DNA of 64,000 nucleotides, taken from assembly GCF_035083965.1 (NCBI RefSeq), contig NC_089737.1, positions 14,125,029-14,189,028 on the forward strand, given 5' to 3'. The notes under the pieces are model-generated. The model made no database searches and was not told the DNA's origin. It saw nothing but the letters and a program-made list of their open reading frames with translations. Both the position numbers and the translations under genes were made by a program. Shown piece after piece: positions 11,600 to 57,000 of this stretch. Origin of the DNA: Branchiostoma lanceolatum. Its lineage: Eukaryota; Chordata; Leptocardii; Amphioxiformes; Branchiostomatidae. Numbering within the stretch: position 1 is the first letter of the stretch; each line of letters starts with the position of its first letter.

Positions 11600-14500
11600 T
11601 TACAAGATGGTGCATACTGTTTCCTCACCTGGAAAAGCGTAATAAATACCAAAGTTAGTGATTGAATGAATGTATTAATGAATGAATGAATGAGTAAGAA
11701 CGAATGAAGACCTTCATCATACATGATATACCCACTGAGTTCAGTACAGATCACAAGAGAATGGTGTACAGATACATCTATGCATTGTCACATGATTACA
11801 ATAATTATAATAATAAGTAAGTTGGGACTTCTCGCGTCTTTGTGATAACAAAAATGTTAGAGCAGTTATGTTCCATAATTAAAGTCATGTCTACACTCAT
11901 TAGAAATGTATCTGTATTACTTAGGTGTATGGATTAGAGATTATTAGGTTGTCTATAAAGTTCACCAACTCTCTCTTTGTTGTATAATAACAATCTAATA
12001 CAAAATCGTATTCATTCAGTTTCAAAGGCATGTAGTTTGCGACATTTTATTCGACTGTTTTGTGTTGGTGCAGTTGACTCATGGATGTAATAGTATCAAT
12101 TTCTAAGATGGCATAAATGCATTGAAGTACATATTAACAACTACTTACGTGGGGTTGGAGGTGGAGGTGGAGGCCGTTTCTTCAGTTCCTTTAGCACCTT
12201 TTGCATATCTGCCTGCTGCCGCTCCATCCTGTCGATTTTCTCTTTCATCTTACCCATGTCCTTCTCGTAGCGCTCCTGCGGCAGAAATTTGGGCCCAGAT
12301 CGGTCAATCGATTTTTGCAGGAAGTCAAAAAGCAATGTTATTCCAATCACTATGACGGGGCTACGTGGTATATGTTGTAGCCATATCACGAACGTCGTGT
12401 TGAAAAGGAGATTTTTAACTTGCCTTTTCTGCATAGGTTGCTACATTTTATGTTCGACATTTGTCTGTTCAAATTACACATGTCAGGATTGCCTTGATGT
12501 TCATTAGTTTCTGTGCTCACTCTGTAGTATAATCTTTTTACTGTTAAGTTAAACATAATTGTCTTATGATGGAACTTGTGGACTCGTTTATTTTCCGGTA
12601 CTAGTAACTGCATTGTCTTCCCTTTATGTCTGCCATGCTCATTGCAAAATGCGTTACTTTGAAGGTGACGCCAATGACGAAAAAGAATCAAACGTTTTGT
12701 TTATTACTTAGAAATATTTCTAAACTACTATTTTGCTGTGACATTACTGCTGACCTTTGCCCTTTTCGCCTGTTCCTCCATCTGTGCATTCTGAAGGTCC
12801 CGGATCTTCTGTAGCTCAACCGCATGCCGCTTCTCCATCTCTCGTTTCATCTGAGATTAAAAGTGGAAGTTATAAATTATATTAGGGATGATGATTGATA
12901 AACATTTCACGACTTTTGGCTCCTACATCTGCTGGATATATTAACACATGATCTTTGATGAGTTTTCAATTGGTTTTTTCATTCAATGTACAATGATTAC
13001 TCATAACAGTACCTTTTCGATCTGCTCCTTATGAAGCCGCTCCGTTTTCTGTAGATTTTCCTGTTCGGTTTGCTTCATGTCCTGTGCTTGTTTGCGCAGC
13101 TGTTGCTTCTCTCTCGCCATGATCTTAGCATTGAGCTCTGCCTCATGTGCCTTCTGCCGTTCCTGCATTATCTGGAGTATCGAGAGTGCTGCATTAATAT
13201 GTTCCGTAGAGCATACACTTCTTGTCTGTAATATGCTTTGGACACCATAGGGAAATAAAACCTTTGACGTATGCAGAATTCCGACGAATTCAAAAGACCA
13301 GAAACAGATGACAAGGCAATCATCAAGTCCCATACTTCTTGGGTTACTCCAATGTAGTGCTACATTTGTTTTTAGGAATGGGAAAATTACCTTGCTTCGA
13401 TAGCCCTTGATCTTTTCGATTTCTGCTTTTAGCTTTTCTATGTTTTTGGACATCTGCTGCAGAACCACCCACTTCTCCGGGCCGCGTGCCTGCTCTTCGT
13501 ACTGATGGAGTGCATTAGTCAGCTCTACAGTCAACTCCTGGAAGTCATAGTCTGGAGGAGGCGACTCCACGTGTTTTCTTGCAAATAGAACAGTGAAATA
13601 CATACTTTATTCAATCGTTCGCAGGCATTATACTTTATTAGAAAACCAAATCCATACTTCATGATAAACATTTATTAACTATGACAGAAATCGTCGTGAT
13701 AAATGATGTAAGAACGACGAATCAAGCTAAAAAGGAATTCAATTGAAAGTTACCTAATTGGGTCAAACAAGCGTTCAAAGAGTGTCTGGCAGAAGATCTT
13801 GGACAGCTCTTTGTTCTTTTGGATGTAGTGGAGAAATTCCCCGCCAGTAACCACAAACCCTTCCTGCGTTTTGGTAGTGCCGTCGGCTGCCACATAATCA
13901 ACTGGACGCTCCTCTCTTTGAACTGCACAAAGGTTAATGTAGTATAGGAACATTTTGGTTTCAGCCTTTTGTAACGTTTTGTCGACAAAAGGATAAAAGT
14001 GTCACTTTGTAAGGGTAACAGTCCTTCAACTCACATTTGAACAAAAATAACATTTTGACCACTTCAGAAAATTTTTTATACAGTAATCAGAAAACATTAC
14101 CGTAAGTCTCATTGATATGGCTAAATGTTAAGCAAAAAGTACTTTTGAGTCGTCGTCTCTGTCAAGCTATTTTCTCAAAGAAGCATAGCCAGATGCAGAA
14201 GCTAAGTTCGGTGTAATATAACCAGCTGCTGCTGCGTCGCGTTCCTGCGAAGCTAGTGTGTTGCGCCGAAGCAAAGTTTCAAATGTACTTACCCAAACGT
14301 TTTTGCATTTGATCCATCAACTTCTTGTTCTCATTGCTTTGATCGTCTGAGCTGATATCAAAATGGCCGACCTTCTCCAAAAGCATGTCTGTGGCTTTAT
14401 CTAACAGCGTGTTGTGGAAGCCAATGAGGGTAGGCTGGCTGGGAGAGTTCCTGAGCAAATAGATGAGAAATAAAAATCAACTTAAACAAGAATATGACTG

Positions 14501-17500
14501 AAGTGGGAAGCTACTTGCTATTGTATGGACTCTGAGGCCTTGGGTCGGACTGGATAAGATTCATCGAAATAAATTCACCGATTCCGACACTAATGGAGAC
14601 GATTAATGAGTAAATATCGTGGTTCTCCCATTGTCATCGCGATGAATGAGCGTCCCCTCCTATCACAAGTAGTAAATATAATATGTAGATAATCGTACAC
14701 ATAACGAGAGGGTCAAGGTGACAGTTAATTAAACCGTAACAAAATGTTTTTCGTCACGTAAATGATACCTTGTACTGGTTTTCCCACTTCCTTTTGCACG
14801 TTTCCTTGTAGGGCGTCTCATAGCTCCCTTAGGTTTGAGATGTATTTCACTTCCTTGACTTTCCTCCAATGGAACCAGTCCATTGTGGGTGGCGGTAGCA
14901 ATCTGGGACTACAGAATAGACAAAAATCAACTCTTTTTAATAACTTGCAATGCCATGTCTAATGAATACGTGAATGTTGAATATTACATGGTCTATGTCC
15001 GTGAATTGTTCCATAAGGTTACATGAGCTACGGTGGTAAAAGATACATCGGTGCTTACCACCAAACCTTAAAAATCTGGTTATACTGATGCTAACGCTGC
15101 AAAATCTCTATTTTCTGTCTCTCAAGTGAAAACTGATTTAACTAGCAATATTTTAGTACGTTGCATAGATAAATATGTCATATTAATGTTGAATATCTCT
15201 CACTTGCATCTGTTGATTGTATTCATTGATCACCTCCTCAATGGCCCTGACCCGCATGAGCTCTATGGTGTTCTGCCAGGTGTTGTCCAGGGCAGGGATG
15301 GCCTTAGGATCATTGACCGCTTCCATATACTGTCGGGTCATGATGCTGAGGGCCTCACCTGAGAAGATGAAACTTGCATAGATCAAACAGTCAACACTTT
15401 GCCTTGCCTGATTTCATCATGTCGGCGCGTCAGTCAATAACAAAGTTCTTTGTACACAACGAAGTGTTTTTAGCCGACGTTTTGATGACCTTCTGTTACC
15501 TTCTTCAAGGCAGTACTGGCTAATTGACACTAACACTATTGACACAATGCAGCAGTACAAATTTTGCACCTACCTGCAGTGCAAATTAGAACCAGTCATT
15601 AATGCCATGAGGAATTTGACAGACGGTCACGTAACGTCGGCTAGGTCACCTGGTTATGTAATAAGAATTTTGTCATCCAACCAACGCAAGAATGAAGGTG
15701 TAGTCATAAGTGTACTACACTGGTGTAAAATAAGGGGTGTACCGAATAACTAATAGCAAACCATTGTTTTTACTACGAGGAAAGAATTATGGGGATAATG
15801 CCCTTGGTTGTCCTTTCTTACCACTAACAGTTGAAACCTTGTCGTAGCCTCGCTTTGCACGTGACTTCCGCAAAAGCCTCTCGGTGAGGTTTTCAACGCC
15901 CTTGTTAAATTCTGGGTTCAGGCTGTCCGTGTGCTGAGCTATGTTGTACATCACCTCCGGGACCCCAGAGGGGCTCACCAAGGTGGTACATTCCACCGAC
16001 GGGAAGAATGTGAGAATGGCCCGACCTACTTTGTCACTTGTTGACTCCTCAAAATCATCATCATCATCATGACGTCCAAGGACCTACATGTAAGATACAT
16101 AACAGAGAAATACCTGATGTAAAGCATAGCAACTAGGGTGCACAAAGTCTCTATCACAAAATTGATGCTCCTCTCCGCAAGACTAGGAACTATGATAGGT
16201 TTGGATTCCAAGCTAGCTTTGATTGCCATCGACTTTCATCAGACCTTACCTTAGTAATCAAGTACTCGGTAGGAGTCATGTCTTTGCCGAATTCATCCTC
16301 CATCTTAAGAGCTGCGTCACGTAGCAGCCACAGGAAGTCTGGGAAGAACTGACGGAATGCTGACACCTGTGTCTTCTCTCCTTGTTTCACCGTGACCCCT
16401 TTAGCCAGTTTGATGAAGCACCTGGTGAAATGTTGGATTAGACAAAAGCCAGCGCATTAATGTACACTGTTTGATCCTTTACGTCATACGGTACCTGGCC
16501 ATGGGCCGGAATAACGTTCGATACAGACGTTCCGAACCGGTCCGTATTTTACGCGTATTGCACGGTGTTCGAAGTTGTATTGCAAAGACTTCCATCGAAT
16601 TATTCGAACGCACTTCGCATGCGCCGCGAGATTGTGAATTCCAAATTGCGTGGAATTGATGTTTAAAAGTTTTGTGTTCGGCACACCAAATTTTCTCAAA
16701 TTCTGGTGCATTTTGCATTGAAATTTGTGTTTTGGGGTGAGTATGACAGAGAAAATACAACACGGTGCATTCCATTCCATATAACCCTCGGTCCCAGCCT
16801 TACTGTGGGTATGGCTGGTAGCTCGATTGATTCGGGATACACCGTCTTGTATTTGTATAACATGTAATCATTAAAAAGGTAAAGCAGGCATTTTCAATTG
16901 AGGTGAAGCATAATGCTTTTAAGTAGCTAGTGGTAGTGCAATGCGGCTTCGCCACGGCTCGCGTATTAATTTAATGTAATCATTACTCAAAGAAAATCAA
17001 GTACCCCAATCAGATAGATGTAATTAGTAAATTGTTGTCATCAAGTTATTCGTATTCGCGGTAAAATCTACTTACTGCATCTTCTCCAGATCTCCCTTAT
17101 GTGGCACACTGAGTGAGTTGTAGATGAGTTGGGAGGACAGCAGGATGGTCATCACCAGGATAGAGGCGTCCTGGCCAGCACTGGCTCCTACTGCGTCTGG
17201 AATTCAAAATGATTTATTTGAAAACTGAATAAGGATGTCGTCAAATAGATCTTTCTGTACTCTTCAGAAATTATATTTTGAGGCACGATACTACCCTTGT
17301 AGTAGCGTAGTAGCTGGGAGCTAAAGGATACATTGGTATGACATTCCTGCGATTGGGAATGCTAAAAAACAGTTATATGGCACATTTTGGTGAGACTTAA
17401 TTCAGTATCACTAATGAATGTTTTCTGAAACATTATATGTAATACTAAGATGCATTTGGCTTCTTGCGACTAACAAATCTCAGAATGGAGCTAAACCAAC

Positions 17501-20500
17501 ACTCCACTTTTGAGCAAACCCTACTTACCAATGCCCTCTGTGTCCAGTAGCACGATAGTGAAGTCCTTCCCCCGCAGCACCTTGGTGCCCATCCAGATAC
17601 CAAGCGTCTTGGAGAACACGAGATGACCCAGTTCAAAGGCATCCGCTGTGCCAAGTAGCCTATAACACCGATGGTCCTTAGTTACTCGGTTAACTTCTAA
17701 ACAACACCGAAACCAGAGCAATTCCTCATTGATTATGCAAACGAAGTCCTAGTTTGCATAATTTGTATCTAATCGTGTACATCTCTGTCTAAGCTATCCG
17801 TATACCGAATGGTTCCTTTGTTCAGTGCTCCTCCTTTAAAGGTGTTAACAAAAAAACAGAAGTTTCAGAGCAAGCTCATGGGGTGCCCAAACCTATACCA
17901 CCACATCAAAAGCTATCTGCCACAAAAGACCAATGCCATAGCATGTCCAGGAGAAAAGATATAAAGAACGGAAGTTCTACTGAAGTATCCTAGGTCACAC
18001 ACCAGAGGGGCCCCAAACTCGACCCTGACCTCTGTGTACCCACATACCGAACATCATTACAGCACAGCATAATCTCTAAGCAAATCTAAGGGTGGCAAAG
18101 ACCGCATCCAACTGCCAAGTGTGGCTACAAAAACTCCTTTTAACAGTTGGATACGGTCTTTGCCACCATTAGATCTGCTTGGAGATTACATTCACCAGAG
18201 GTTCTTGAGTTAACGTTATTGACAAGACAGAGGGTATGAGGTCTCCGAACTCTTGGTTTCTTGTTACGTTACTTTTTGTGCAAATGCTGGTCACACAAGG
18301 CGTTGGCTTGCATGTTGGAATTGACACTTTTTTGGCTTAAGTTCACTCAAAAGGTTTGGACCATTTACGCCAGAGTCGCCAAGGTCACTGATATCTATCA
18401 CCAATTCTCGGCCACGAAAGCATACATTTTTTTTTATGGCTAACAGGTAACATCTCACCTTGAGAGGATGTAGCTTTTTCCAGTCCGACAGGGTCCACAG
18501 ATTGCCAGGACACTCACGGGCCCCTCGATCCCCTCCATTAGATCCAAGGCCTCGGGAACGACATGCAGACTTTCCCGTCGGACACCCAACACCTCTTCGA
18601 CTTTTCCGGTGGACGCATTGTACTTCAGATCGTTCGGCAGGATCAGCGGGATGGACGAGCCATGGACGGTATTCCCACCTCCTTTGGGCTTCAGCTCCTC
18701 GACTTTGAACCCGAGCTTGGAATGTAACCTCCCTATGTCTGTTGGAAATCGTTGCAATGTCATGGTGAAAAGGCTGCAGTATTTTGTAGTAAGAAGAAAT
18801 AAGAGAAACGCAGACAAAATCTGATAATTTCATGCAAGCCAAGCTGCTTATTACCCCAGCTGATACTGGATGGACACATGTTTCTTTAGGTCTTAGGCAG
18901 TAAGGTGTGTCCAAGATTTCTTGTTCCTAAAATTCTATTCAATACTGCATTCGTCTGATAGCATGGGGCCATATGTTATAGGCTATAGCTCACTTTGGTC
19001 CATTGTCACACATCCCCCCCCAACAATGTATTTTATATTGCGGTTCATCCTTATGACAAAAAATCTACCATTCTCAAGCTTGTGTGCCTTCCACCCTCTC
19101 ATGCCAGGCCTGCCACTAGTCCCTTTCAAGTTGCGGTAGTATTTTTCAGCAGGGCTGCCATCATCATCTGGTGTGTTTCTCTTTCTCATTCCTACAAGAA
19201 GGATATCATGGCTTGTTTTGGTGTTTGCGCATGCCTCAACAACCCAATACATACGATGATACATAATGTATTACTTAAGTTAAAGGTAAAGGGGAACCAT
19301 ATATTTAAAACTCTTTGATAAACTCGTATAGATCAATTCATAGATTAACAAGAGTTCTACGACCTCATACCTTCGCCAAATGATCTTAACCTTTATGACT
19401 GACGTATTGGGAGTGTTTCTCATCAATTATGAATCATGCCAGTTGGTCGTCTTCACCCAAGTAACATAAGTTGTCCAAAGTATAACTATGAGCTAAACAA
19501 AGAAGGTTATGCTAACATTTATCATCAATTATGCAAATAAGCTCCTTATTAGCATGATTTGGTTCAATGGTGTTCACATTCGCACTACTTCCAAATGCCA
19601 CAAGTATGAAATTGCCGTCATTAACTAGTATGCAATTATAGTAGTTTAACATTAATTATACAAATTAGTCTACATTTGCATATTTTTATCTATCAACATT
19701 CCTTTCTTCCTCAGTTACAAATTCGCATATTTGAATAGTCATATCATGGAACACAGCGGGTTTTTAAATTGCCTCATTAATTATGCAAACTAGAATCTGA
19801 TTTGCATCATTATCATCCAATCAAACAAAGCACCACGTAAGTTATAGAGTTATAGAATTTCTCATTAATTATGCAAAAGAGGTCTTCATTTGCATAGTTG
19901 ATATTTATTACTATTTCTCTCTTCCTCGGCCATGTCACATGTTTGAGAGTTCTATTATGGAATTTGGAGGATGTATCAATTTTCATCATTAGTTATGCAA
20001 ATTAGATACTGATTTGCATAATAAGTTTTATATCATGTAAATCATCACTCAGGCTATCCACTTAGCAAAAAGCATGACCATCCATCAAGCCCTTCTTGAG
20101 TTATTCCCTTTCACAGTCTGAAGCGAAACCTGCTCCTGCAGTCCCAGAAAATGCCGCTAGGGTGTCCAAACCGATACCTTTTACTCTCTTTCCAAAGAGC
20201 TATCTACCACTCAAAAGTCGGTTCCATAGCATATCCAAAACATGAGAATTTCCGCTGCAGTACTATAACAAGCCGCTAGGGGGCCCAAAATCTAATCATT
20301 TTCAGGTCTCACCAAGACCTACCAACATACCAAATGTGAAGACAACCCATCCAGGCATTCTTGAGTTATGCTGGTCTTCGTATACATACAAACGCTACCC
20401 TATGCATAACCTTCTCGGCGAAGGTAACTACTTGCCTTGAGGAACAGTGCAATTTCACAAGATCAAGATCTAAAAGTCAGTGAGAAGCCAATTTGTGTCA

Positions 20501-21570
20501 GCCAACACGTTTTAGGATCTTTTAGGCCTTCACAGTCAAACACCCCTGGCCCAATGGGAATATCTCCTTACTACACCAGTAACACTTTCCCTAAACCAGT
20601 AACACGTTCCAGCTGGTACCCAGCACAGGCACTCATACAATATAACACATTTCTACACTTTTCTCGTTAATTATGCGAAGTACTTCGCCCAAAATCTAAT
20701 CATCTTTAGATTTCCCACATACTCATCAACACACCAAATTTGACAACAATCCATCCAGGCGTCACTGCACGAAATGGCCTCGTATCCCGGCGTATACGTA
20801 CAGGGATTCCTCTGAAAATATTCCATTTCCCGGTGCGGATTTTTTAACGGAAACGCTAAATCCGCACCGGGATATGGAATATTTCCGGAGGAATCCCTGT
20901 ACGTATACGCCAGGATACGAGGCCATTTCGTGCAGTGCGTTCTCGACTTATTCTGTTCACTAACAGACACACAGACAAGCATCAAAACATAGACTTCTTG
21001 GCGAAGTCAACAACTTTCAACGTAGCCTTTGAAAACGTGTATTTAATGAGACATATGCCCTCCAAGAACCTCTGAGCATCCAATCCCATATTACTTTTGA
21101 GCACCTAAGTCCCATAATCAAACTTGTTCTAATCACATACCAAATGTCATAAAGATCCCTTTACAACGTCGCAATTTCACAAGTTCTGCTGGTCAGCCAC
21201 ATTTGAACGAAACCGAAAACATAATTTTTGGCGAAGGTACTATCTTTCATATGAAGACCAAAATCTACTCACTCTCATCCCTCTCCAAATCCTCAGCTTC
21301 TTTTGCTAGCCGTGCTTCCTTGAGGGCTGTCAAAAGTTCCTTCAGCAATCCAAGATGTCCCTCTCTAATTTTGTCATCAGCTTCCAGCATAGTGAACATC
21401 TCATGTGGTGTTGCATTCTGAACTTTTCCTTTGGCAATATGATTGCCTAACAAAAGTCGCAAACTTTTCACTTGATTTTCAGATAAATTTTCATCAACCT
21501 TTAGATAAAACTTGCTACGAGGGGATAGTTCAAACTTGTCTGATGATGAGTCACCATTCCAAGACGCCAT
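11600..21570 (-). CDS. DED-GBP fusion: death-effector domain + guanylate-binding GTPase + coiled coil + CaaX box
   Basis: Coding exons: 21570-21273, 18738-18459, 17659-17529, 17196-17076, 16421-16250, 16083-15822, 15358-15204, 14908-14769, 14450-14293, 13922-13754, 13577-13391, 13171-13013, 12850-12755, 12275-12149, 11628-11600. They total 2484 nt (827 residues) with every phase consistent. Residues about 18-95 are a DED (LSENQVKSL, HEMFTMLE, LLKELLTAL) like that of FADD. The GTPase has the P-loop GPCRTGKS at 181-188, DTEG at 232-235 and the GBP-type LLRD at 309-312. Helical and coiled-coil regions follow to about 810, then a proline run (811-818), and the last four residues CTIL form a CaaX box as in vertebrate GBPs. 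The DED exon has ACCATGG at the start and ends in phase 1; the GBP exon opens in phase 1. An ATG at 18763, in frame, could start a DED-less form. If the 12149 donor is not used, translation stops at TAG a few bases later and the CaaX is lost. Inferred role: prenylated defence GTPase with death-fold signalling. Confidence 0.83.
16878..16972 (-). mobile_element. SINE fragment (AGCTAGTGGTAGTGCAATG family)
   Basis: The phrase aggtaaagcaggca then tagtggtagtgcaatgcgg and cttcgccacggctcgcg matches the longer copies at 46612-47060 and 54837-55210. It lies in a DED-GBP intron. Confidence 0.6.
17720..18250 (-). repeat. degraded piece of the TACCTTCGCC element
   Basis: Contains gattatgcaaacgaagtcc/tttgcataatttg and the gagggtatgaggtc edge, matching interior and end blocks of the elements at 10349 and 19368. 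A foldback element (18071-18187) is inserted in it. Confidence 0.5.
18071..18187. mobile_element. foldback MITE, CTCCAAGCAGA-type
   Basis: Left arm aatctctaagcaaatctaag then ggtggcaaagaccgcatcc; right arm is the inverse, ggatacggtctttgccacc then attagatctgcttggagatt. Arms are about 45 bases with a loop of about 30. It lies in DED-GBP intron 2. Confidence 0.75.
19368..20425 (-). mobile_element. 1.1-kb non-autonomous element with TACCTTCGCC inverted ends (copy B)
   Basis: Left end TACCTTCGCCAAATGAT, right end TTCTCGGCGAAGGTA: the same termini as the 10349-11475 copy but inverted. The interior is colinear in reverse, with blocks of AATTATGCAAA and TTTGCAT. It sits in the large intron between the DED exon and the GBP exons. 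Confidence 0.75.
20763..20937. mobile_element. CACTG-ended snap-back MITE with probable CGT target duplication
   Basis: Near-perfect hairpin: CACTGCACGAAATGGCCTCG on the left and CGAGGCCATTTCGTGCAGTG on the right. The arms are about 80 bases (both contain gtatacgtacagggattcct or its complement) around a short loop. The flanks read ggCGT|CACTG and CAGTG|CGTtc, which fits a 3-base target duplication of the CACTA superfamily. It is inserted into a degraded TACCTTCGCC-element piece. Confidence 0.8.
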
Positions 21571-27927: not shown

Positions 27928-30083
27928 TTATTTCGTGCAAGCCTGAAACAAGAACAATAACAAAACAACTTGTCAGGACAAAAGAAAAGAGACTCTCTCT
28001 CTCTCTTTACTTCTGATTTGAAGTCAAACACCAAGTCACTGTAGATAAGTCAATGAATGAAACTATTGAAAATGACAAGTACACAGATTAGCACTCAGCC
28101 GATTTGTCCAAGTTGTATGTGTTTTTGCAAAGAAGAGGTAACCTTTAAGTGCTCTATTAGGCCTCATGATCTGAACGATCACAAAACAGTTCGTTTTTTA
28201 TAAGAGATTGATAAGTACCTTTATTTCCATGATGTAGATGATGGCTGCATAAAAGGTTCCCTTGCTGAATTCGTTCTTTAAGTCCCTTAATTGGTCCTCA
28301 CATTCTGGTAAGTAGAAATATGAAATAGCAAAGCAAATACCATCAAATTCACAGTACTCTCTCTAGAAGGAAAATAAAGCGTGTCGATTATTTGCATCAA
28401 TTAAGAATTAGAAACATCTTCATTAAATAGTTTTGTATTGCAAATGAATAAAGATTTCTAATAATAAAACATTCTACATTACTATAGGCATATTCATAGC
28501 ACTGGTTGGTGTTGATTTGTGGTTAGCCGTGCATGGGCATCAACTTTGCAACATTGAAAAATTAAAAAAAGGAACATGGAATGTGAAAAATTTAGCATGC
28601 TCACCCTGGAATGTCGGCCTGTCCTGTGCGTTCTGACTCCAGCATGTCTGCATCAGCTGACTGACTGTGCCCACCTCTGGCACATTTGTGGGGACCAACT
28701 TCAGGTCAGGCCGTTGTCCTGTTTTCACAGCAAGCTCGATGAGTGCTGAATTCATTGCATCTGCAGGGAAAGTCAGTGAATGAAAGACTCATGATTATGT
28801 TATATATGAGCTACTAAAGATGAAATAAGATTAAAGATGGTGTGAGGCGGGCCTACTGATAGAGCAAACATATACTCACTTTCATATGGCTTTCGTCTCG
28901 TGATGATTTCCCACAGCAGCACACCAAAGCTGAAATCATCACAAAGGGTGGTTGAAACTTAAAACCTGAAATCAAATTTCTCTTGTGGAAGGCAATAATC
29001 TAACTTTTCAAGTTTAAAAAACGTACCTGTACACATCAAACTTGCTGTTGGGAACGCTGTTGATATCTATGATGAACTCTGGTGGAGCATGCGTGATTGT
29101 CGCACCGGTTGGACTCGTTGAAGTGACAACGCGTGACGTAGTTTTCCATTTCGACAGGCCGAAGTCTGAAATCTGAAGGAGGGTTCAAAGCCATTAAAAC
29201 AGCATAATATAATGATAAGCCACTCAAGTTGGTCTGTATCTATGGATGACAGCCCTATAGAAGATTATTATTATGACTAAAGACTGGGCGAATTGTTTCG
29301 ACTTGTGATAGAAAACGTCACCCGTTACCTTCACATGGAAGTCTTCATCCAGTAGCACGTTTTCTGACTTCAGATCGCAGTGGAGAATCTGTGGGTTCTG
29401 GCAGTGCAGGAAAGTCATCCCCAGGGAGATCTCGTGCGCCATTCTCCACCTCAGGGCCCAGGGCACGTCCACATCCCGGAGCAGCTCGGCCAGGGAGCCG
29501 TTCTCCATATAGGGCATCACGATGGCGAAGTGTGGCTCCAGACAGACCCCCAGCAGACTGACGATGCAGGTCGATCGACCTCCAAGGTTCAGCTTTCTTG
29601 CCTCAGAGTATAGGAGAGGTCGCTCGCTATATAATAGAATGAATGAATGAATGACAAAGTATGTAATTATAGTCTTGTTTGTTTGCTTGCTTGTTTGTTT
29701 GCTTGCTTGTATTGCATACCCGGTAAACTGCCTCCTGGCGTAAAATACAAGGTTTGTACTGAACAAAGTACAAACTGCATATCCGGACAGATTTATTTGA
29801 TCCACTCACTCCTACTTTTGTTATAAGTGTGGCGGGTTTAAATCTTAAATGACTCGTACTGCGAATCAAGTTTTTGATACGATGATGAAGATTCATGCAC
29901 TGACCTTCCTTCTGTTGGTTGAGGCAGCAGCCGTTTGACAGCCACGTCCTGTTTCCAATCCCGATGATGAGCCTTTGCTACGGCGGCGAACCCTCCATGG
30001 CCGAGGTAGGACTCTGTCGGAAAGTCCAGCCGTTCATACTCGATGACAGGAAAATTGTCATCATCCGTCACGCTCAGCTTATT
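27928..30083 (-). CDS. RIPK-like protein kinase module, 3' part of the GBP-kinase gene
   Basis: Exons 30083-29905, 29626-29329, 29172-29027, 28929-28880, 28760-28605, 28304-28219, 27942-27928; 309 residues. The kinase domain is complete: glycine loop LGHGGFAAV, VAVK lysine, C-helix glutamate in YSEARKL, HCDLKSEN catalytic loop (H-x-D as in RIP kinases instead of HRD), SDFGLSKW, HAPPEF and SFGVLLWEI. HVKISDFGLSKW is close to RIPK2. The first exon opens in phase 0 with NKLSV and has no ATG before the glycine loop, so it needs an upstream exon; the nearest in-phase donor is the last GBP exon, 201 bases away. The C-terminus after the kinase domain is short (MEIK, then ACTK and stop) with no CARD, death domain or RHIM. 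The last exon is the least certain. Active-kinase residues are all present. Confidence 0.85.
29690..29815. repeat. short repeat, TGCATACCCGGTAAACTGCC family
   Basis: cttgtattgcatacccggta ... gctgcatatccggacagattt-type sequence in a kinase intron. It is nearly repeated at 36303-36420 and, more diverged, at 43765-43850. Probably a SINE part. A TTTG/CTTG microsatellite precedes it. Confidence 0.55.
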
Positions 30084-30284
30084 CTAGGAGAAAACAAGGT
30101 TGAACTCAATAGGATTTTATTTCACACCGGGGATCTACAAAATGTTTCGTAATCTATTACGATAACCTTGAGTGTTTAAGTTGCAGTATGTCTTTTTTCT
30201 CTAAAACATATCATCTTCCTGCAGAATTATTGTTGATTTTATTTCTTTATTGTGATTCGTTACATCTGTCATTTTCGAACGTAC

Positions 30285-33200
30285 TTTCATTCTTGTAACC
30301 CGGACTCCCTGTAGCTCAAGTGCATGTCGCTCTTCGATTTCTTGTTTCACCTGAGGAAGGAAAGAGGTAATAACAGATGGTAGGTAGATCTTTTGCAATG
30401 TTCGGAAATGCTCCTATCCTATCCACTTCAATATCAAATGCCGGCCCAAATCGGAGAACAATTACATATGTCAACTTATCCAAGTACCTTCTCCATCTGC
30501 TCCTTGTGCTGCTGATCCATTCTCAGATGGGCTCTCTGCATGTCCTGAACCTGTTTCGTCAGCTGCTGCAGTTCCATGGCCTGTTCCCTGGCCTTTAGGT
30601 CTGCCTCTCGTGTCTTCTGTTGTTCCTCCATCACCTGTGGTAACGATAAATTGAAATGTCCAGCATATTTACTCTACAGACTTATTTCTTCTTTCAATTG
30701 GACAATGACGTAGTTGATAAACCATGTATTTAGGTATAACGTTATGTTATATGTATTGTGTAACGTCTTTTCGCCAAGGGATTGTTGTGAGGAAGTGAAC
30801 AGTGAGTGAGTACTCAGTTTTTTTATTTTCCTCTCTTGTAGCTGAGATCCATTGATAATTGAAATTGCAATGTTGGTATCACGTTCAGACAATACCAACC
30901 ACCGGTATGCATCATGTGATGAAGTATCTAAATAAATCTTACCCGCTGCTCGTTGGAATGAAAAATATTACCTTGTATTGATATCTATTAATCTTCTTGA
31001 AGCTGGCCTCCAGATCTTGGCTCTTGGTCATCTCTTGCAGGACAGTCCACTTCTCTGGGCCACGTGCCTGCTCCCCGTACTGCTGACGTGCTTCAGTCAG
31101 CTCTCCCACCAGCTGTTTAAACTGATAGTCCGGAGGAGGCTTCTCTACACGTTTCCTGACACACAATTAAAAGCGATAAGTTATTATCATTAGTGAGACC
31201 CGTATCCCCCAAATTAGCCCACTGATCAGTCTTGACAAATTGTATTTACCAACTGCTAACGGAGATTTACTATCACATGCTGTCAAAATAATGAGGAGTA
31301 AAAATGACCTTCTGTCTTTACAAGGAATGAAGTGAATGTTTGAATTACCTTATTGGGTCAAACAAGCGTTCATAAACCTGTTGACAGAAGACCTTTGAGT
31401 GTTCTCTGTTCTGCTGGATGAAGTGGAAAAGCTCCCCGCCATTAACGACAAACCCTTTCTGCTGATAGGTTTTGCCGTCTTCTGCCACATAGTCGACTAT
31501 GCGCTCGTCTCTTCGAACTGCAATTAAAGTGACGAAAATGATATCACCTTTATCGAATTTTCCTATTGTTTTAAGCTTGCCATATTTGCATGTCACTGTG
31601 ATCTTCATTTCGGAAATTCACATTAAGAGGTGCATCATTTTTTTTAAAATTACCCAGACCATTCGTCAATAGACATACTAGGTAGTCTCGGAATATTCAA
31701 CTGACCTGACTAGAATGCTCAGCCCAAAGCCCACTGACAGTGGGTACGTTCATAGTCTCCGTTAGCCCCCAAAGTCTACATCAGAGTTTTACTTCTTGGA
31801 CAACTAGGCAGATACCTCAGCTAAGTATTGATCATCGTTGACTACCCACCCAAGCGATTTTGCATTTGATCCACCACATCGTCGCTCTCGTCATATCTCT
31901 GAGTCTGTGAGCTGGTACAAAAATGGCCGACCTTCGTCAGAAGCTTGTCTGTGAGTACCTTGAACAACTCGTTGTGTAAATCCATGAGGGTAGGCTGGGC
32001 GGGTTGGTTTCTGAATGGAGAGATATGAATAGAGCGAATAAAGATGCAGCCTATTGCACACAGTGTGTATATGTGGGAAAATGACACCAAGTTTTGATTT
32101 GTTATTACAATTGATGTTTGATAAAAAATTTCCTTACTTTCCATCTTTTGCCATCTCCTCTATTGGAACTTGTCCATTTCCGCTCGCTCCAGCGATCTTT
32201 GCCTAGTAGAGAGAATAAAGTGTAATTAACATCGAAAGCTATCAGTCCACAATGTCTTATTTTCTCTCAATTGAATAATGGTGTAAATGGTTATATCTAG
32301 GCCATCGCTAATATCCATTAGAAGGAAACAAAATAATTGGGAAATAGATAAATAACTGATGATACGGATGGTATCGCGTGATTGCAACGAAAAATCAAGA
32401 TATCTATGATACGGGCAGTGCTGTTAGATCGCACCTGCATCTGCTTTATGTACTCCATGGCTATTTCATCAATGACCTTTCTCCGCATGACCTCTACTGT
32501 GTTCTGCCAGGTGTTGTCCAGGGCAGGGATGGCCTTAGGATCATTGACCGCTTCCACATACTGTTGGGTCATGATGCTGAGGGCCTCACCTGAGAGGAAT
32601 TACATACATGATTGATAATTAAGAAATCCAACACTTTAATCAGACTCTAATTAATGACTTATCAATTTGTCTCAACCTGGACGTAAAGACAACAAAATTT
32701 GTTGCCATGATAACTGTGGTCTCTGCTAGTGTTTACGTTTTCTACAACTTACACTATAGATCAGACGCAAATAAGGACCTCAATTGTATAGATTTTATCA
32801 GTAGATCACCTTCTCTACTCAAATAACACAAGTTGTTTAAAGTCTTATCTTAGCAAAAAGGCTATTTGTACCATTGCCTTATAAATTCTGTAAATAAGGA
32901 CCTCGTCTGCATGATTTATGTCTGATAATGCCCACATTTACTTAACTTCCAAATGCGCCAAAAAGGTATACTCACTGACAGTTGTCAATTCTTTATTCTG
33001 AAGATGAAATTATGATCATGAGTGTTGGTCACATTTTCCTTCTTGACTAACTTACCACTAACAGTCGAGCCGCTGTAGTAGCCTCTCTTTGCACGTGACT
33101 TCAACAACAGCGTTTTTGTCAGCTCCTCTACACCCTTGTTGAATTCTGGGTTCAGGCTGTCCGTGCGCTTAGCGATGTTGTTCATCACCTCCGGGTCCCG

Positions 33201-35888
33201 AGAGGGCCTCTCCAAGGTGGCACACTCCACAGATGGGAAGAACGTGAGGATGGCTCGTCCTACTTTGTCACTGGCTGACTCTTCAAACGCATCAGGGTCA
33301 CAACTAAGGACCTAAGTTTAGAATTGATCGATCAAGAAAGTATAACGTAAGTGACACGTCAGGTGATCGGAAGCATAGTAATCAAACCTTCCCTTCCTCT
33401 CTCATACTAAGGCTTTAGATTATTCTTATCCTCCTGTTTTTGTGTTAGATCAAAGCACTGTCTTCCATCTACATTCTTGACAATGGCGCTGCACCATATA
33501 TATCTTACCTTCTTCTTCAAGTACTCGCCGGGGTCCATGTCTTTGCCGTCCTTATCCTGCATCTTCTGAGACACGTCACGCAGCAGCCACAGGAAGTCTG
33601 GGAAGAACTCACGGAATTGTGCCACGTCTCTCCCCTCTCCTTTTTTCACTGTGATCCCCTTAGCCAGCTTGACGAAGCACCTGGTAGTATTTTGAATTTT
33701 CAGTGCTTGTGTTTTAAAGTACACTGCATGTCTGATAAGTACCACATTAGTTAGATGGTAAACATAGTCATTAATGGTAGACAAAATGTATTAATGGCAG
33801 TTGAAGCTGATAGACGTAACTCGTTCATATACTCACTGCATCTTCTCCAGATCTCCCTTGTACGGCACATAGAGTGAGTTGTAGATGAGATGGGACGAAA
33901 GCAGTATGGTCATCACCAGGATAGAGGCGTCCTGGCCAGCGGTGGCTCCTACTGCATCTAGTCGTTGATTCAGAAGTGATTTTTTTAAAATCATTGAGCA
34001 AGGGTATCATCAAGCGTGTCCTCTATTGCACACTATCACTTTATAATTTACGTTTTGATACATGACACTATTCCTAGGGTAGAGAGCTGGAAGCATATCA
34101 TAAATCAGGATAAATCAGTATAGCATGTTACACTTTTAGGTGAATCTCTTTTTAGTAAAGCTGTCACATATTGCCTTACACTACTTACATTATATATACA
34201 TGTAATAGCTTTGCGAACTACTAGTAACCTGGATTCCACCTTAAGTTGGTTGGTCTTAAAGGAATTTTGAAGCGAAAGCTGCGAAGCAAACCTAAGTATC
34301 CGGGTAAGCCCTGACCAACCCCACGTACCTATGCCCTCTGTGTCCAGCAGCACGATAGTGAAGTCCTTCCCCCGCAGCACCTTGGTGCCCATCCAGATAC
34401 CAAACGTCTGGGGGTCCGTGCGATGGCCCAGCTCAAAGGCATCCGCAGTGCCAAGTAACCTATATTGAAGAACAATGATTTCAAGAAGCATGTTCGGCAA
34501 TTCAGTACAGTTCCGCCATATGCATTCACCTTAATGATATTTATATCCTAATAGTAATAGCATTTGAAATAACCAATAGCCATAGGCCCCCACAAGACCA
34601 TGCTGAAACCTGAATCCTTATTTAGAATTTCTTCTATATCATGACGCAGATACATCAAATGTGTTTGGGTCCATGTAGGCAGTCTAGATACATGTGTTGA
34701 AAACAAGTGTCTTAAAACCGTAGTCAAACACGTGTGTTTGGTCAGACAAGAGAAAAGGCAATGACCTCCGGCAAATTACAGTTCGTTTGAATCATGAACC
34801 ACTGCAACCATGCAACAGGCTATCATGACTGAGGGTATAGCTGTTAATGAGTTGCGGTTCCTTTATAATGGGAATAACGCACTTTATGAGGTTGAATCTA
34901 ATAGGGATTCGAGACGCGTTGGATTCGCCATTGCTTGGTGCATCATCAACAAGAGTTCGGAGACGTCATGAAATATATGATACGCTAATTAGGCCCTTAT
35001 TTCAGGCGGAAAGTAACAGGAGGGTATTCTATTTTGGCGAGGTCCGTGCCTTTGCCAATATTTGCTATACCGATGTCACAATGTGAGAGGCTACACTCTG
35101 TGAGAACAAAAAGCGTGTAGGTGTTTGTTTCGGTGTGTACAATGGAATAGCGAATATCAGGTTACTGCCGAGTTAACGTGGTATATAGCACCCCAACTAA
35201 CCAAATCGTTTACTCTATTTACGTCAAAATTGTCACCACTGGCACCACTTGTACACGGCCAACCTACTATTTCTCGGGCGATGTAACTGTTATATGGATT
35301 TTAACATAAAGTCGAAGATAATAGAGCTTCCAGCAACTTGTATGTATTACAAAGTAAGCTTAATATATACCATACAGTGACAAAAAATCATTTAAACCAA
35401 ATTCCCTTCTGCAAGAATTGAAACTTTGTTGACCTAACGGTGACATCCAAAGGACAAGGCTAAATGCGGAACTTCAAGTGACAAAACTTAATTAAGACCT
35501 ATATACTATAGCTATCCGTAGCCCTGCCGTGGCCCAGTGGTTCTGCTACTATGGTAACACGACACAAAGGTACCGAATGCAGCAGATTAGACGATAGACA
35601 ACCCATCTTACCTGGAGAGGATGTAGCTTTTCCCGGTCCGACAGGGCCCGCAGATCGCCAGGACGCTCACGGGCTCCTCGATCCCCTCCAGTAGCTCTAA
35701 GGCCTCGGGAACGACCTGCAGGATCTCCCGTCGGACGCCATACACATTTTCGACTACGCCGTTCGACGAATTGTATTTCAGATCGTTTGGCAGAATCAGC
35801 GGGATGGACGAACCCTGGATTGGCCTACCTGGTTTGGGCTTCAGCTCCTCGACTCTGAACCCGAACTTGGAATGCAGCCCCGACATAT
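30285..35888 (-). CDS. guanylate-binding protein (GBP) module, 5' part of a predicted GBP-RIPK-like kinase fusion
   Basis: Exons 35888-35612, 34459-34329, 33957-33837, 33680-33509, 33311-33056, 32589-32435, 32202-32138, 32010-31850, 31517-31349, 31155-30972, 30635-30488, 30350-30285. The exon plan and phases match the DED-GBP paralogue. From the ATG at 35886 the GBP part is about 634 residues: P-loop GPCRTGKS 80-87, DTEG 131-134, LLRD 208-211, helical region, then an E/Q/K-rich coiled coil. The first exon opens after an acceptor-like AG in phase 1, so an upstream exon is possible; no DED was found before the AGMO1 gene. Exon 30635-30488 counts 148 nt against 147 expected, and the extra base (T run at 30600-30601) breaks the frame unless the exon is skipped or the base is an error. 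Exon 30350-30285 ends in phase 0, matching the kinase exon at 30083. Read-through past 30285 would stop at 30201. Inferred role: GBP-type defence GTPase with its own kinase. Confidence 0.85.
30595..30605 (-). other. apparent one-base frame disruption in the GBP coiled-coil exon
   Basis: On the - strand the coding phase before this point reads EEQQKTREAE-like codons and after it a frame shifted by one (KAREQAMELQQLTKQ), both matching the paralogous exon 13171-13013. The plus strand reads ctttaggttctgcc at the join. The shifted frame would hit a stop in the next exon. Polymorphism, assembly error, exon skipping (both neighbours are phase 0) or real decay are all possible. Confidence 0.6.
32690..32960 (-). 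repeat. piece of the AT-rich dispersed element
   Basis: aatttgttgccatgataact ... accttctctactcaaataac ... ccacatttacttaacttcca recurs at 950-1200 in the same order. In a GBP-kinase gene intron. Confidence 0.55.
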
Positions 35889-37581
35889 CTGCTGGAATGT
35901 TTGGCAATCCACATAGGGACGCAAACTTTCCTGTGCTCTGTCACCTAGCTACTTACACCTGCGCATTTATCCGTATTTGAGGCGAGTGTGTGGGGATTTC
36001 CAATGTTTACGGTCTGAGGGTCAAAGTTCGATCTTGAAAATGACGTCAGTCCTTTTGCATATGAACTTTCGGTCGTCTAGTGGTTTGAGCATGTGTTGGT
36101 CAACATATCACCACTGGGTGTTAGACTGCATTTAAAAGAAATTAAACTCTTGTGATCTGTTTGTTAGACTGCACTTAAAAGAAATTAAACTTTTGTGATC
36201 TGTTTAAGCAAGAGGTTATAACCTCCTTGGTTTAAGTACTGATAATGCACACCCGAAAGGAAGGGCTAATGTTTTACTAGATATCCGGATGTATCACGGG
36301 GCCTTTGTTTGTTTGTATTGCATACCCGGTAAACCGCCTCAAGACATAACATACCAGGTTTGTACTGAAGCGTACAAGCTGCATATCCGGACAGATTTAT
36401 ATGATCCACTCACACGCATGCAATGACGTGATACATATGACGTTTTTAATACTAATATTCAAACATAATATTTTCTTTCTATTATCGTCTTACATTCCGT
36501 GAATAATATTTTAAGATCTCCGGTTGTGAATGTACTAATGGCATAATTAAATAATAATCCACAATGTAACATTGAACGTATATATTCTATGACATAGAAA
36601 TGTACAAGGCTTGTTAAATTGACTCTTTGCTAAGATTGATACTCTCATTAACATAAGCTGAACACGGCCAATCACAATTCCTGAGTAATTTAAGATGAAC
36701 ATAATTATCTAATGTTTATGATTATATAAACATGACTTGCTCCTAAAGAAATAAACTTGCAATTGCATTGATTAACAACAATATTGCTTAATTTCCTTTT
36801 TTTTTTAGGTCACATCAATTCAATTTCTAGATCCTTGGATCGCTAGATTGGAATATCAACCTGAAAACAGATTCTTCATGTGGGTATGAAGCATACTTTG
36901 TGCGTATAAATATGTAACGTTAGGGTAAATCTAATCACATTGGAATTGCATAGATACTATCTAAAACTTCAACAATTCAATTCCAGAAATCTGCTCGACG
37001 AATGTATGAAGATTAGCAAATATTGAATCCAGTAGAAGGCAAAAAGCCTCAAAGAATTATTCCTTGAAAACGCGGTACTTTATCTTATGGGTTTTGATCT
37101 TAAAGACATGTTTCAAGACGTTGATTTACCAGATACCATCGATACGTGTTACACGTGAAAGCTTAACATTAATACAACAATTGAAAGTTGTGCATACCGA
37201 TACCTTTTACACGTATATCACCAATTTAGAGTCATAAATGACTAGCATCAATCATCGTCAGGAGTGTCAATCAACGTTAGACATCATCATGCATTAATAC
37301 TACATTCGAAACGAATCAAACAAAAGACATATTATATCTTATTCAGTTGTTTGATTTTGTATAAAGCCTTCAAAGAGCATTAATGGAAAATACATTAGCC
37401 TTCTAAATGCTACCTAACCCCTTAATCAATACGGATTTGGTACCAAACATTCTCAGGCTGATGATTAATCTGATTTAGAATATGTGAAAGCTTAGGGAAG
37501 GTAGGGAAGTTAATACACGAAATGGTAGCTGACACCAGGTATCAATCTATTTGCCAAACGATTGCCTTAGCAGGCTGACAA
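35889..37581. other. interval between GBP-kinase gene and AGMO1; no exon recognised
   Basis: If the GBP-kinase gene has an upstream first exon it should lie here. I found no DED-like reading frame. 36115-36215 has a tandem pair (ttagactgca(t/c)ttaaaagaaa, then ttaaact). 36303-36420 is the TGCATACCCGGTAAACCGCC repeat. The remainder is AT-rich. Confidence 0.5.
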
Positions 37582-43500: not shown

Positions 43501-44481
43501 ACAGAGCGCCCATAAAATGTTCACCTCTACAGCAGAAATTATATAAAGCAGAGAAAAGAAATTAATGGTACAAGCTGTGGCAAGATGAATGCACCTACAA
43601 AGTATACATTATTATATACATTATTTCTACTGTCAGTCATAGATAAGATTAATTCCTTGTATTTGTTTAGTAGAAGCAATAGTTCAAACCTCATGTGCGT
43701 AACTACCATACACTGTACCAGTTACAATTGTCGCGCAATAAAGTTCTTCTTCTATCTTTGTTTGCATGGCATACCCGGTAAACCGCCTCAAGGTATGAGG
43801 CACCACAGTTGTACTGATTAATTCGATCTATTCATACTCTTTCCGATAAGTGTGGTGGGTTCTTTTACATGCTCAAAGTGTGGCTCTCCTAAAACACGGG
43901 ACCTCCATGTAACGTCCTGTCCGGGGGACGTCCTTAACCGAACCTAGGTACTTATTTTCACCTGTGTGAATTGAGGAAGTCGCGTGTGCACAACATCAAC
44001 GGACAAATCAGGGGATCCCGGATTCGACCCCAATACACCCTCAGCCACTGCGCCACCGCGACGCCACATACAAAAGCTGTGACAAGATACTTACAAAGAT
44101 TATGCCAAATTTCTGAGCAGAAAACAGTGATACATACCATGTGACATCCTGTGGAACCAGTAGTAGGTAAACTCCACCAGGATGAAGGCAGTCCACCAGG
44201 TGACGGGGGAGTCCCAGGGTAGATCCACTAGTCTGTAGTTCTCATACACCCAGACGTACGTCATCATGTAAACACCCTTGGTGAAAAAGCTGTAACAATA
44301 GATGCACAAATTGTGTACTGTAAATTAATCGAAATCGACGGCGATGGAAATATAAAGCGTTTGCGTTTTTTCTTGCCTTAAGATAAATCGGGTTAGGACA
44401 TTGGTTCGAACAAGCAAACTTTTAGATTGGGATGGGAGGGCTCAATACTGCAATGTTTTGATTCATAATAATACAACTCTA

Positions 44482-54000: not shown

Positions 54001-57000
54001 GGAGTTAGAAAGTTTGCTCAAAAACAAGAACAATTTCATTGATTGTATTAAGCACATGATATACAGGTACATACTGTACATCAAAGGTAATACAGTCACA
54101 ATGCACTGTGAAAAGAATGATATAAAAGATAATGATGAAAGGAATTGAACTTTCAAGGTTTACATGTACAAGATGACAGAAAGTGCAATACTGTAAATAC
54201 AGAAATCTTTGCAGGGATTTAAATTTGCGGTGGATTTGAGTTCATGTTTGAAAAAAATAGTAGCCCTACAGTCAACAGTTAACCGCGAAAACCGGGAACA
54301 TAAAAACACTGCGAACATTTCTGCATTAATTTTGCAGTATTTGATTTGAAACTTTTCTAGTCTGATCCTTTAAGTTAATGCAAAACAAAACTCACTAACA
54401 TATTATTAAGGCAACTGACCATGGTGGACTCTGTGGTGGCTGGGAGTGTTTAGTATGTACTCCAGGGGCCCAAGGGACGTCACCAGCTGTAAGATGTACA
54501 TTTGGTACATAGATATACATTTTACATACTTACATCAGCAAAAGTAAGCTTGGCACTGGGATCAAATTTATTTTAAACAATAATACCGTGTCAAATGTTA
54601 GGCGTGACACTGTGTCAGTCATGAAAAAACAAGATATACGTATTGTACATTAGAATAGAGATTTCTAATCCGTTCATTGGTCAAGACTATATGTAAATTC
54701 TTGAGGAAAAACAATGAACCATTCCTAGCCTAGTAGCAGGCTCTGCAGATTGCTGAAAAAAGTAGAAATTTGCCAAACAGAGTGGATACTACATGTAGTA
54801 GTATGCTAGCCTAGGGTAGTTGGCCAACCAATAGGTAAAAGGTAAAGCAGTCATCCTCAATCGAGGTGAAGCGTAATGCTTTTTCAAGTAGCTAGTTGTA
54901 GTGCAATGCGGCTTCGCCACGGCTCATGTTTTTGGCCAAGCACACCGGGTCACCCCTACTCTTCTCGATAAGTGTGTTGGGTTCTTTTACGTGCAGAGGT
55001 TTGACGCTTGAGGCTTACGCCCGAAGCTCCCTCATACACGGGGCCGCCGGCTTTACGTCACCATCCGAAATGACGAATGCAATCCCTTACAATATGTCCG
55101 AGCTCGAGAGTCGACCCTTAGGATCGAACTCGGGCCCTTAGGATCCACGGAATTTGATCCAGATGGCGAAGCAGCGGGGTAGCGTTACCGCTTGCGCCAC
55201 GGGGACATGTATAACTATCCACTATATTAGACCAATTCTTACTACTAGTATTTTTCCAGCACTCCGCAGAGCCTGGTAGAGGCTAAAGCTTTATTACAAC
55301 CTCACACAAAGCCCTGGAGTTTGAAATGGGATGAAGCCCTTTTCTCACCTCAGTGTGAATCCAGAACTGATATAACAGGTTGAACTGATAGTGGGCTGAG
55401 TACGCAGCAGGGGGAACCAGGAAAGCCGCAGGGAGTTGGAAGAGCTGAAATCAACAGTATTTCATTTTTATTTATTTATACAGGGTAAATACAACTCAGG
55501 CTGTGAAGCCTGTTTTTCAGGTACCCCTGATTTCACATATAAAAACACAAACTACAACTAAGTACACAGTGACAATAATAATCAATCAATCATAAAAGCC
55601 ATGTTACATAGAATACAGATTTCAATTTCCGCCGGTATTGCCATTCTGAAAGTTCTTGTAAGTAATAGCAGTGCATTTATGGTTAACATAATAATAACAT
55701 TGACAAGGCCTAGGGGAAAAAAGTTGTGTTTCAGGTTACCTAGCCTGACTAAATCGCACTCCTAGCGGTGGGCCCGTCAGATACCACCCCCTAGAGGGAG
55801 GGGTTCATTAACGCAGGCCAGCGAGAGGCTGTGTAAACAAAGGCTACAGGTTACCCGACTGACCCAGCTAGCAACATCCTGCTGATCCCTAGCGTCTATT
55901 TTGGTCGACCACTGGAAAGGGACATAAAACTTTTGGTCTACCATCTAATATAAAATCATTTTAATTTGCTTTTTCCACTTAATATGTACTAGTAACAAAC
56001 CATGATTAATCACTTCTTGGTTGGTTCGTTCAGACAATAAACTAAAAAAATGCAAGATTATAACTTACAAAGAATGTGAGAACTTTCTGAGTGGAAGACT
56101 GTCTCAGTGCCGTTGTCAGGTTGTAGTCTTCTGAGCTGTGGTGAACCTGGTGTGATGCCCACATAATGTTCACTTCTGCAGTGGAAATCATACAACAGGG
56201 AGTTACACTAGACAAAATCCTTAGTACACAGGGCTTGAAATTTATTTTAGGGAATAGGTGCACTGGTGCACTTGCTATCCTTGGAATTCCTGGGGTACTC
56301 CCTGTGGAAAGTTTCCTGCCAACTAACATTAAAACATTCCTATGGACTAAAAATAGCTGCATGACCCCCTTTGGAATAGATTTCTGTGGACAAATTCCTG
56401 TACAATTCCTAGAATTCTTGCAGACTGCACACAGTACATTAGGCTTGCCCCTGAGGCATCGCCAAAATCATTTAGGGGACCACCAAAAAGCCAGGTCACA
56501 TTGGCTAGCTTGTCATTATGTACAGGTGGTCACTTGTACAGGTTTGCCTCTATGTTACGAAGTGCTAACTAAAGGCTCCACTCCTGAAGCATTACCAAAA
56601 TCATTCCATACATGTACATACCATGTGACATCCTGTGCAGCCAGTAGTAGGTAAACTCCACCATTATGAAGGCAGTCCACCAGGTTACAGGGGAGTTCCA
56701 GGGTAGCTCCACCAGTCGGTAGTTCTCGTACACCCAGACGTACGTCACCATGTAAATACCCTTGGAGAACAAGCTGAGGTGGACGCAAATGGACTATCAT
56801 AAGCTAATAAAGTCTGCATTAGTAATAGAAGACTGACAGTACTAGTTTAACTAACTATGTGTAAACTGTGTTGATTTTGATAGTCAATTGTTTTATATTC
56901 TGACATTGAATTGCAAATGGCTGTCATCTTTACGCCAACTCAATTCAGAATTCACAATTATACTGAACAGACAGATTTCTATGATCCACTCACACCAGGA

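Follow-up and report, generated by a model that had tools for sequence, protein, structure and literature searches.

A predicted guanylate-binding GTPase continuous with a RIPK2-like kinase in the lancelet Branchiostoma lanceolatum

Do two adjacent sets of exons in the lancelet Branchiostoma lanceolatum, one for a guanylate-binding protein (GBP) and one for a protein kinase, encode one protein or two? The exons lie in a stretch of 64,000 nucleotides of contig NC_089737.1 (assembly GCF_035083965.1, positions 14,125,029 to 14,189,028 of the forward strand), hereafter the window, to which all coordinates refer. A first-pass annotation, made from the letters alone, had placed at 27928..35888 twelve GBP exons leading in the same orientation, across a 201-base intron, to seven kinase exons, and had proposed a single protein of about 940 residues. 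Rebuilding the gene exon by exon reproduced this layout: 19 minus-strand exons, from 35886 to 27928, gave an open frame of 943 residues plus stop codon, and all 18 introns were GT-AG. Residues 1-634 (exons 1-12) form the GBP half and residues 635-943 (exons 13-19) the kinase half of this predicted fusion, and the main catalytic motifs were found in both (Table 1). The annotated end at 27928 was retained; the start moved to an ATG at 35886-35884. Position 35888 is the first base past an acceptor-like AG (score 8.27), two bases 5' of the ATG, and homology with a neighbouring GBP paralogue begins at about this site, which suggests an upstream first exon of the fusion gene, perhaps untranslated.

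The GBP half matched the Pfam GBP N-terminal domain (PF02263) with E 4.8e-43 and the GBP C-terminal domain (PF02841) with E 2.3e-9 (37.5 bits, cut-off 24.3), the latter match covering just positions 2-60 of the 297 in the profile. Among 26 matches to solved structures GBP1 ranked first (E 1.2e-38), followed by GBP2 and GBP5, with atlastins much weaker; a weak second match to the GBP1 structure lay at 477-619. The motifs GPCRTGKS, TFGIWM, DTEG and LLRD were correctly placed in the GBP1 alignment. We take TFGIWM to be switch I and presume that the other three have their usual roles in GBPs. The hallmarks of a GBP-family G domain were thus all present: GxxxxGKS with its arginine, the switch I threonine, DxxG and (T/L)RD. 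Judged by sequence similarity, the identity of this domain is far beyond chance. The fusion shares with human GBP1, and with GBP2 and GBP5, the G domain with an arginine-bearing P-loop, the DTEG and RD motifs and probably a helical region. Unlike these proteins, it matches PF02841 at the start only and has the kinase where they have a CaaX box, a motif that was not found at the C terminus of the model, which ends EIKACTK.

The kinase half matched PF07714 (E 5.3e-47) and PF00069 (E 2.9e-41), and its identity as a kinase domain is, from these profiles, likewise far beyond chance. It matched 2459 sequences of solved structures at E 0.001, and we ranked the best 60. The best 12 of the 2459 were RIPK2 (top score 212.8 bits), followed by RIPK4 (193.0), RIPK3 (172.5) and RIPK1 (164.9); these four made up the best 32, and other kinases appeared from 121 bits. 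In the RIPK2 alignment, which spans RIPK2 residues 10-313 and includes the post-kinase helix, 120 of 292 aligned residues (41%) were identical. The counterparts of RIPK2 K47, E66, D146 and D164 were conserved and that of S176 was Val. By this ranking, which is not tree-based, the kinase is closest to RIPK2 among solved structures, and its place in the RIP-kinase class holds; the annotation had called it RIPK-like, which the structure matches sharpen to RIPK2-like. The fusion resembles RIPK2 in the kinase domain and post-kinase helix. It differs in the GBP part in front, the valine at S176, the mostly changed contacts for XIAP (detailed below) and the lack of the C-terminal CARD, which is absent from the model as it stops at 27928. 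Neighbouring frames were scanned for domains in open reading frames hand-picked from 128 minus-strand frames of at least 50 residues, a list that excludes both GBP genes; ten of these (nine at 22.8-27.7 kb, downstream of the gene, and a tenth that overlaps exon 19) had no Pfam match at E 0.1. An NCBIfam scan returned for the fusion generic kinase matches far below cut-off only, and for the paralogue one weak SMC match.

Whether the two halves belong together depends on the 201-base junction intron. As the annotation had read it, both the end of exon 12 and the start of exon 13 are in phase 0. We scored splice sites with position weight matrices built from the other 30 of the 31 introns modelled in the fusion and its paralogue. 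The junction donor scored 8.84, with 18 of the 31 introns lower; of the 3963 GTs that the window has on this strand, 1.2% equal or exceed it. The acceptor scored 5.75, with 8 of the 31 introns lower and 5.9% of 3824 AGs at or above it. The donor is good and well above background; the acceptor, described in the annotation as good and pyrimidine-rich, is ordinary. No other good donor was found in exon 12 and the junction intron, where the next best reached 3.8. Upstream of its glycine loop, exon 13 lacks an in-frame ATG, as had been noted from the letters, and the codon directly 5' of this exon is TAG.

A tandem GBP paralogue, downstream of the fusion gene on the same strand, shows what follows exon 12 in a related gene. 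It is 69% identical to the fusion's GBP half over 628 aligned codons, and the intron phases of exons 1-12 are equal in both genes. Over these codons nonsynonymous divergence (dN) was 0.21-0.22 and synonymous divergence (dS) 0.44-0.46; the ratio of 0.45-0.49 indicates that the GBP halves are moderately constrained. Exon 12 is homologous between the genes up to ELQ(G/K)(V/I)R. In the paralogue it ends in phase 0 and is followed by two further exons whose last residues, CTIL (11628-11600), form a CaaX-type prenylation box, and there is no kinase. The kinase exons of the fusion occupy the position of these tail exons, behind the same phase-0 exon 12. Together with the matching phase, the strong donor and the missing ATG in the kinase exon, this makes a single gene well supported, and GBP and kinase are predicted to lie, with good likelihood, on one transcript.

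The simplest history would be a tandem duplication followed by a swap, in one direction or the other, between tail exons and RIPK2-like kinase exons at the phase-0 intron. We looked for CaaX-tail exons surviving elsewhere in the window; the best tblastn candidate (E 0.028) was on the opposite strand and contained a stop, and was rejected. A repeat of about 112 bases lies upstream of the fusion gene (36304-36413) and again in the first kinase intron (29698-29809), the two copies being 86.6% identical, and fragments of this dispersed repeat occur at 43757-43817 and 56970-56995. That the pair aided recombination is speculation. As an observation in its own right, the CTIL ending gives a presumably invertebrate GBP a CaaX-type box. 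Human GBP1, 2 and 5 carry CaaX motifs (PMC12091997).

The explanation that best covers these findings as a whole, to which we give a probability of about 0.55, is a single gene for a 943-residue protein in which GBP assembly clusters a RIPK2-like kinase. In such a protein the kinase would stand, behind a large G domain and helical stalk, where the tandem sister has its prenylated tail. Both enzymes would probably be competent. With GTP bound, the GBP part would form dimers and enter GBP assemblies on the membrane of a pathogen or vacuole. In humans, GBP1 coats serve as a platform for signalling to which four GBPs, caspase-4 and gasdermin D are recruited, and attachment of the coat depends on the CaaX box of GBP1 (PMC12091997). 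Since the fusion has no CaaX box of its own, co-assembly with an anchored sister would be its likeliest route to the membrane, where the prenylated GBP would hold it. That the GBP part would oligomerise and so bring kinases together can soundly be inferred from the human coats, and clustering of the kinase on a GBP coat is, on this analogy, somewhat favoured. The crowded kinase domains might then activate one another or form a signalling scaffold. In RIPK2, XIAP binding spans the kinase dimer, which serves as the XIAP platform (PMC10485824), so clustering could activate the kinase with neither NOD nor CARD involved. The result would be a CARD-independent short cut to RIPK2-type output, that is NF-kB/MAPK signalling, an end point that we propose only tentatively.

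Several features of the junction intron weigh against a single gene. The claim of one protein of about 940 residues stands on frame, phases, donor and paralogue; the intron also allows readings in which the GBP ends within it. Read-through would stop after 27 extra residues at a TAG (30203-30201), a stop that the annotation had pointed to. An acceptor with exon start 30218 outscores the kinase acceptor (6.73 vs 5.75) and one with exon start 30134 scores 4.47; each would end the GBP five residues on, after EDDMF and IPGVK, respectively, and the former would need a 66-base intron, the shortest of the 31 modelled being 97 bases. Three AATAAA hexamers (30251, 30243 and 30121) occur against an expectation of 0.17 (Poisson P 0.0007), two of them only eight bases apart. 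Exon 12 closes with the codons ATG AAA, so that an internal promoter could conceivably give a kinase starting MKNKLSV. Lancelet gene models are prone to prediction errors, and a case of merged neighbours has been shown (PMC4967905). On these grounds there could be two neighbouring genes, a GBP ending in the junction intron with the tail VRSKMTDVTNHNKEIKSTIILQEDDMF or with EDDMF, and a kinase beginning at an unseen first exon or at the ATG AAA of exon 12. The kinase half moreover starts about one residue before RIPK2 residue 1 (by extrapolation of the alignment), as a whole-gene kinase would. Such a pair would be separated by just 201 bases, and the kinase exon would still require an upstream exon or ATG; the phases match, and it is in that phase that the paralogue has its tail after exon 12. 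The candidate GBP tail, compared as read-through tail or junction intron with paralogue exon and intron 12 beyond the conserved core, has no detectable counterpart there: the best local score was 40.4, not above base shuffles (n=300, mean 35.6, s.d. 5.6). We regard two genes as unlikely. An intermediate possibility, that intronic polyadenylation or the alternative acceptors yield a kinase-less GBP while full splicing yields the GBP-kinase, draws on the evidence for both products at once; paralogue intron 12 also holds two AATAAA, yet coding exons follow it, and we rate this as rather unlikely too, if a little less so. Lancelet genomes are highly polymorphic, and an assembly or haplotype chimaera could place unrelated exons together. 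This is highly improbable here, as ordinary sequence runs without a break across the junction, the splice sites are plausible and the phases agree.

Other points bear against the signalling part of the single-gene reading. We compared the fusion at ten RIPK2 positions named at or near the XIAP contact in PMC10485824, omitting D291, for which the printed sequence has E at 291. Two of the ten were identical (D39 and K209), three conservative (R41K, E279D and S282T) and five changed (R36H, N133T, N137C, I208S and K285E); D39L in RIPK2 is harmless (PMC10485824). With these positions mostly altered, use of XIAP by the fusion kinase is not to be assumed. The fusion may be real and its kinase serve the GBP part: instead of sending an NF-kB-type signal, the kinase would hold back or set free assembly by phosphorylating either the GBP to which it is fused or the sister GBP. 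There is a precedent in human GBP1, which PIM1 phosphorylates at Ser156; once phosphorylated and in complex with 14-3-3, GBP1 fails to dimerise (PMC7615196). The changed XIAP surface would fit this role, and the retained RIPK2 post-kinase helix argues against it. PIM1, too, is of a different kinase family, outside the RIP kinases, and we find such a role doubtful.

Judged by its domains, the GBP-kinase model combines two known families in a new way. Our literature search, which covered titles and the beginnings of abstracts, found no description of a GBP-kinase protein; this is weak evidence of absence, and public annotation may well contain such a protein as an unnamed prediction. Of 173 papers that name two of PF02263, PF00069 and PF07714, the best-ranked 20 did not include PF02263. 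Joining of a RIP-kinase domain to other domains is itself known from lancelets: 19 RIPK homologues of B. floridae are tabulated, several fused to LRR, Death, Zalpha, SH3 or ZU5 domains (PMC9573974), including LRR-Death-kinase and Zalpha-kinase arrangements. The fusion is alike in this respect and differs in its partner, as none of the 19 rows of that table has a GBP domain. Domain joining in lancelet immune genes is also discussed in PMC2575513, and a B. belcheri gene named GBP5 is entered with -10.75 in a table of genes changed after poly(I:C) (PMC5752451).

Provided that the transcript is real, two innate-immune families that have been studied separately are joined here in a natural fusion, and the coat itself could switch a signal on. 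It would suggest a functional link between GBP coats and RIPK2-type signalling and would raise the question whether vertebrate GBP coats recruit or activate RIPK2. Two tandem duplicates would then bear, at the equivalent place, a lipid anchor in one and a signalling enzyme in the other, with the anchored sister adjacent. If there are two genes, the locus is a further merged-gene trap like the one described in PMC4967905.

Table 1. Positions of the modelled exons, the junction intron and two neighbouring features in the window
Feature	Position	Strand	Basis
Exon 1; ATG at 35886, P-loop GPCRTGKS (residues 80-87)	35612..35886	-	
Exon 2; GBP G domain, TFGIWM (110-115), DTEG (131-134)	34329..34459	-	
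Exon 3; GBP G domain	33837..33957	-	
Exon 4; GBP G domain, LLRD (208-211)	33509..33680	-	
Exon 5; end of G domain (PF02263 match stops at 308)	33056..33311	-	
Exon 6; start of GBP helical domain (PF02841 match 314-373)	32435..32589	-	
Exon 7	32138..32202	-	
Exon 8	31850..32010	-	
Exon 9	31349..31517	-	
Exon 10	30972..31155	-	
Exon 11; E-, K- and Q-rich, helical by eye	30488..30634	-	
Exon 12; last GBP exon, C-terminal ...VTRMK, phase 0 end	30285..30350	-	
Junction intron, 201 bases	30084..30284	-	
Exon 13; first kinase exon, LGHGGF (661-666), VAVK (681-684), no in-frame ATG	29905..30083	-	
Exon 14; alpha-C Glu (702), HCDLKSEN (776-783)	29329..29626	-	
Exon 15; DFG (796-798), APPE (822-825)	29027..29172	-	
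Exon 16; kinase C-lobe	28880..28929	-	
Exon 17; kinase C-lobe	28605..28760	-	
Exon 18; post-kinase helix, alignable to RIPK2 up to RIPK2 residue 313	28219..28304	-	
Exon 19; ACTK and stop	27928..27942	-	
Death effector domain exon between the two GBP genes, phase 1 end	21273..21570	-	PF01335, E 3.1e-12
Tandem GBP paralogue; 14 exons, 736 residues, no kinase, ends ...REETVCTIL	11600..18763	-	Pfam, exon rebuild

The exon for a death effector domain (DED) between the two GBP genes also matched FADD among solved structures (E 5.8e-5). We considered it as a C-terminal domain of the fusion and rejected it, as exon 18 ends in phase 0, entry to the DED exon is in phase 1 and the two are more than 6 kb apart. 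The DED exon can splice to an exon at 19191-18994 (acceptor 10.3), which has 198 bases, phase 1 at both ends and no Pfam match. That exon may run on to a stop at 18983, in which case the gene is small and separate, or else splice, once more in phase 1, to 18738, close to where GBP homology sets in. The DED exon may thus belong to a gene of its own or form the 5' end of the paralogue; the acceptor at 18738 is poor (-0.31), which makes a DED-GBP less likely than a separate DED gene. If exons 21570-21273 and 19191-18994 were nevertheless spliced in phase 1 onto the CTIL-ending paralogue at 18738, the two genes could form a built-in coat signalosome: a DED-bearing prenylated GBP would lay the coat and lead to cell death, and the GBP-RIPK2-like kinase would join it and lead to inflammation. 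The coat would then have, covalently built in, both outputs for which vertebrates recruit separate proteins. We consider this arrangement a long shot.

Upstream of the fusion gene, at about 38.6-46.5 kb and 52.9-58.7 kb (limits by eye), the minus strand carries two similar exon sets that look alkylglycerol monooxygenase-like by eye. Their Pfam matches to FA_hydroxylase and AGMP_C fell below the curated cut-offs, and they are probably tandem genes. Aldo/keto reductase exons (PF00248) lie on the plus strand near both ends of the window, at 3097-3336 and 61550-61939. Four near-identical open reading frames of 53 residues, spaced 190 bases apart at 51012-50284, represent a tandem repeat. A dispersed repeat in intron 5 of the fusion gene (32694-32964) matches 955-1212 (72.8%) and, inverted, 11407-11256 (70.2%).

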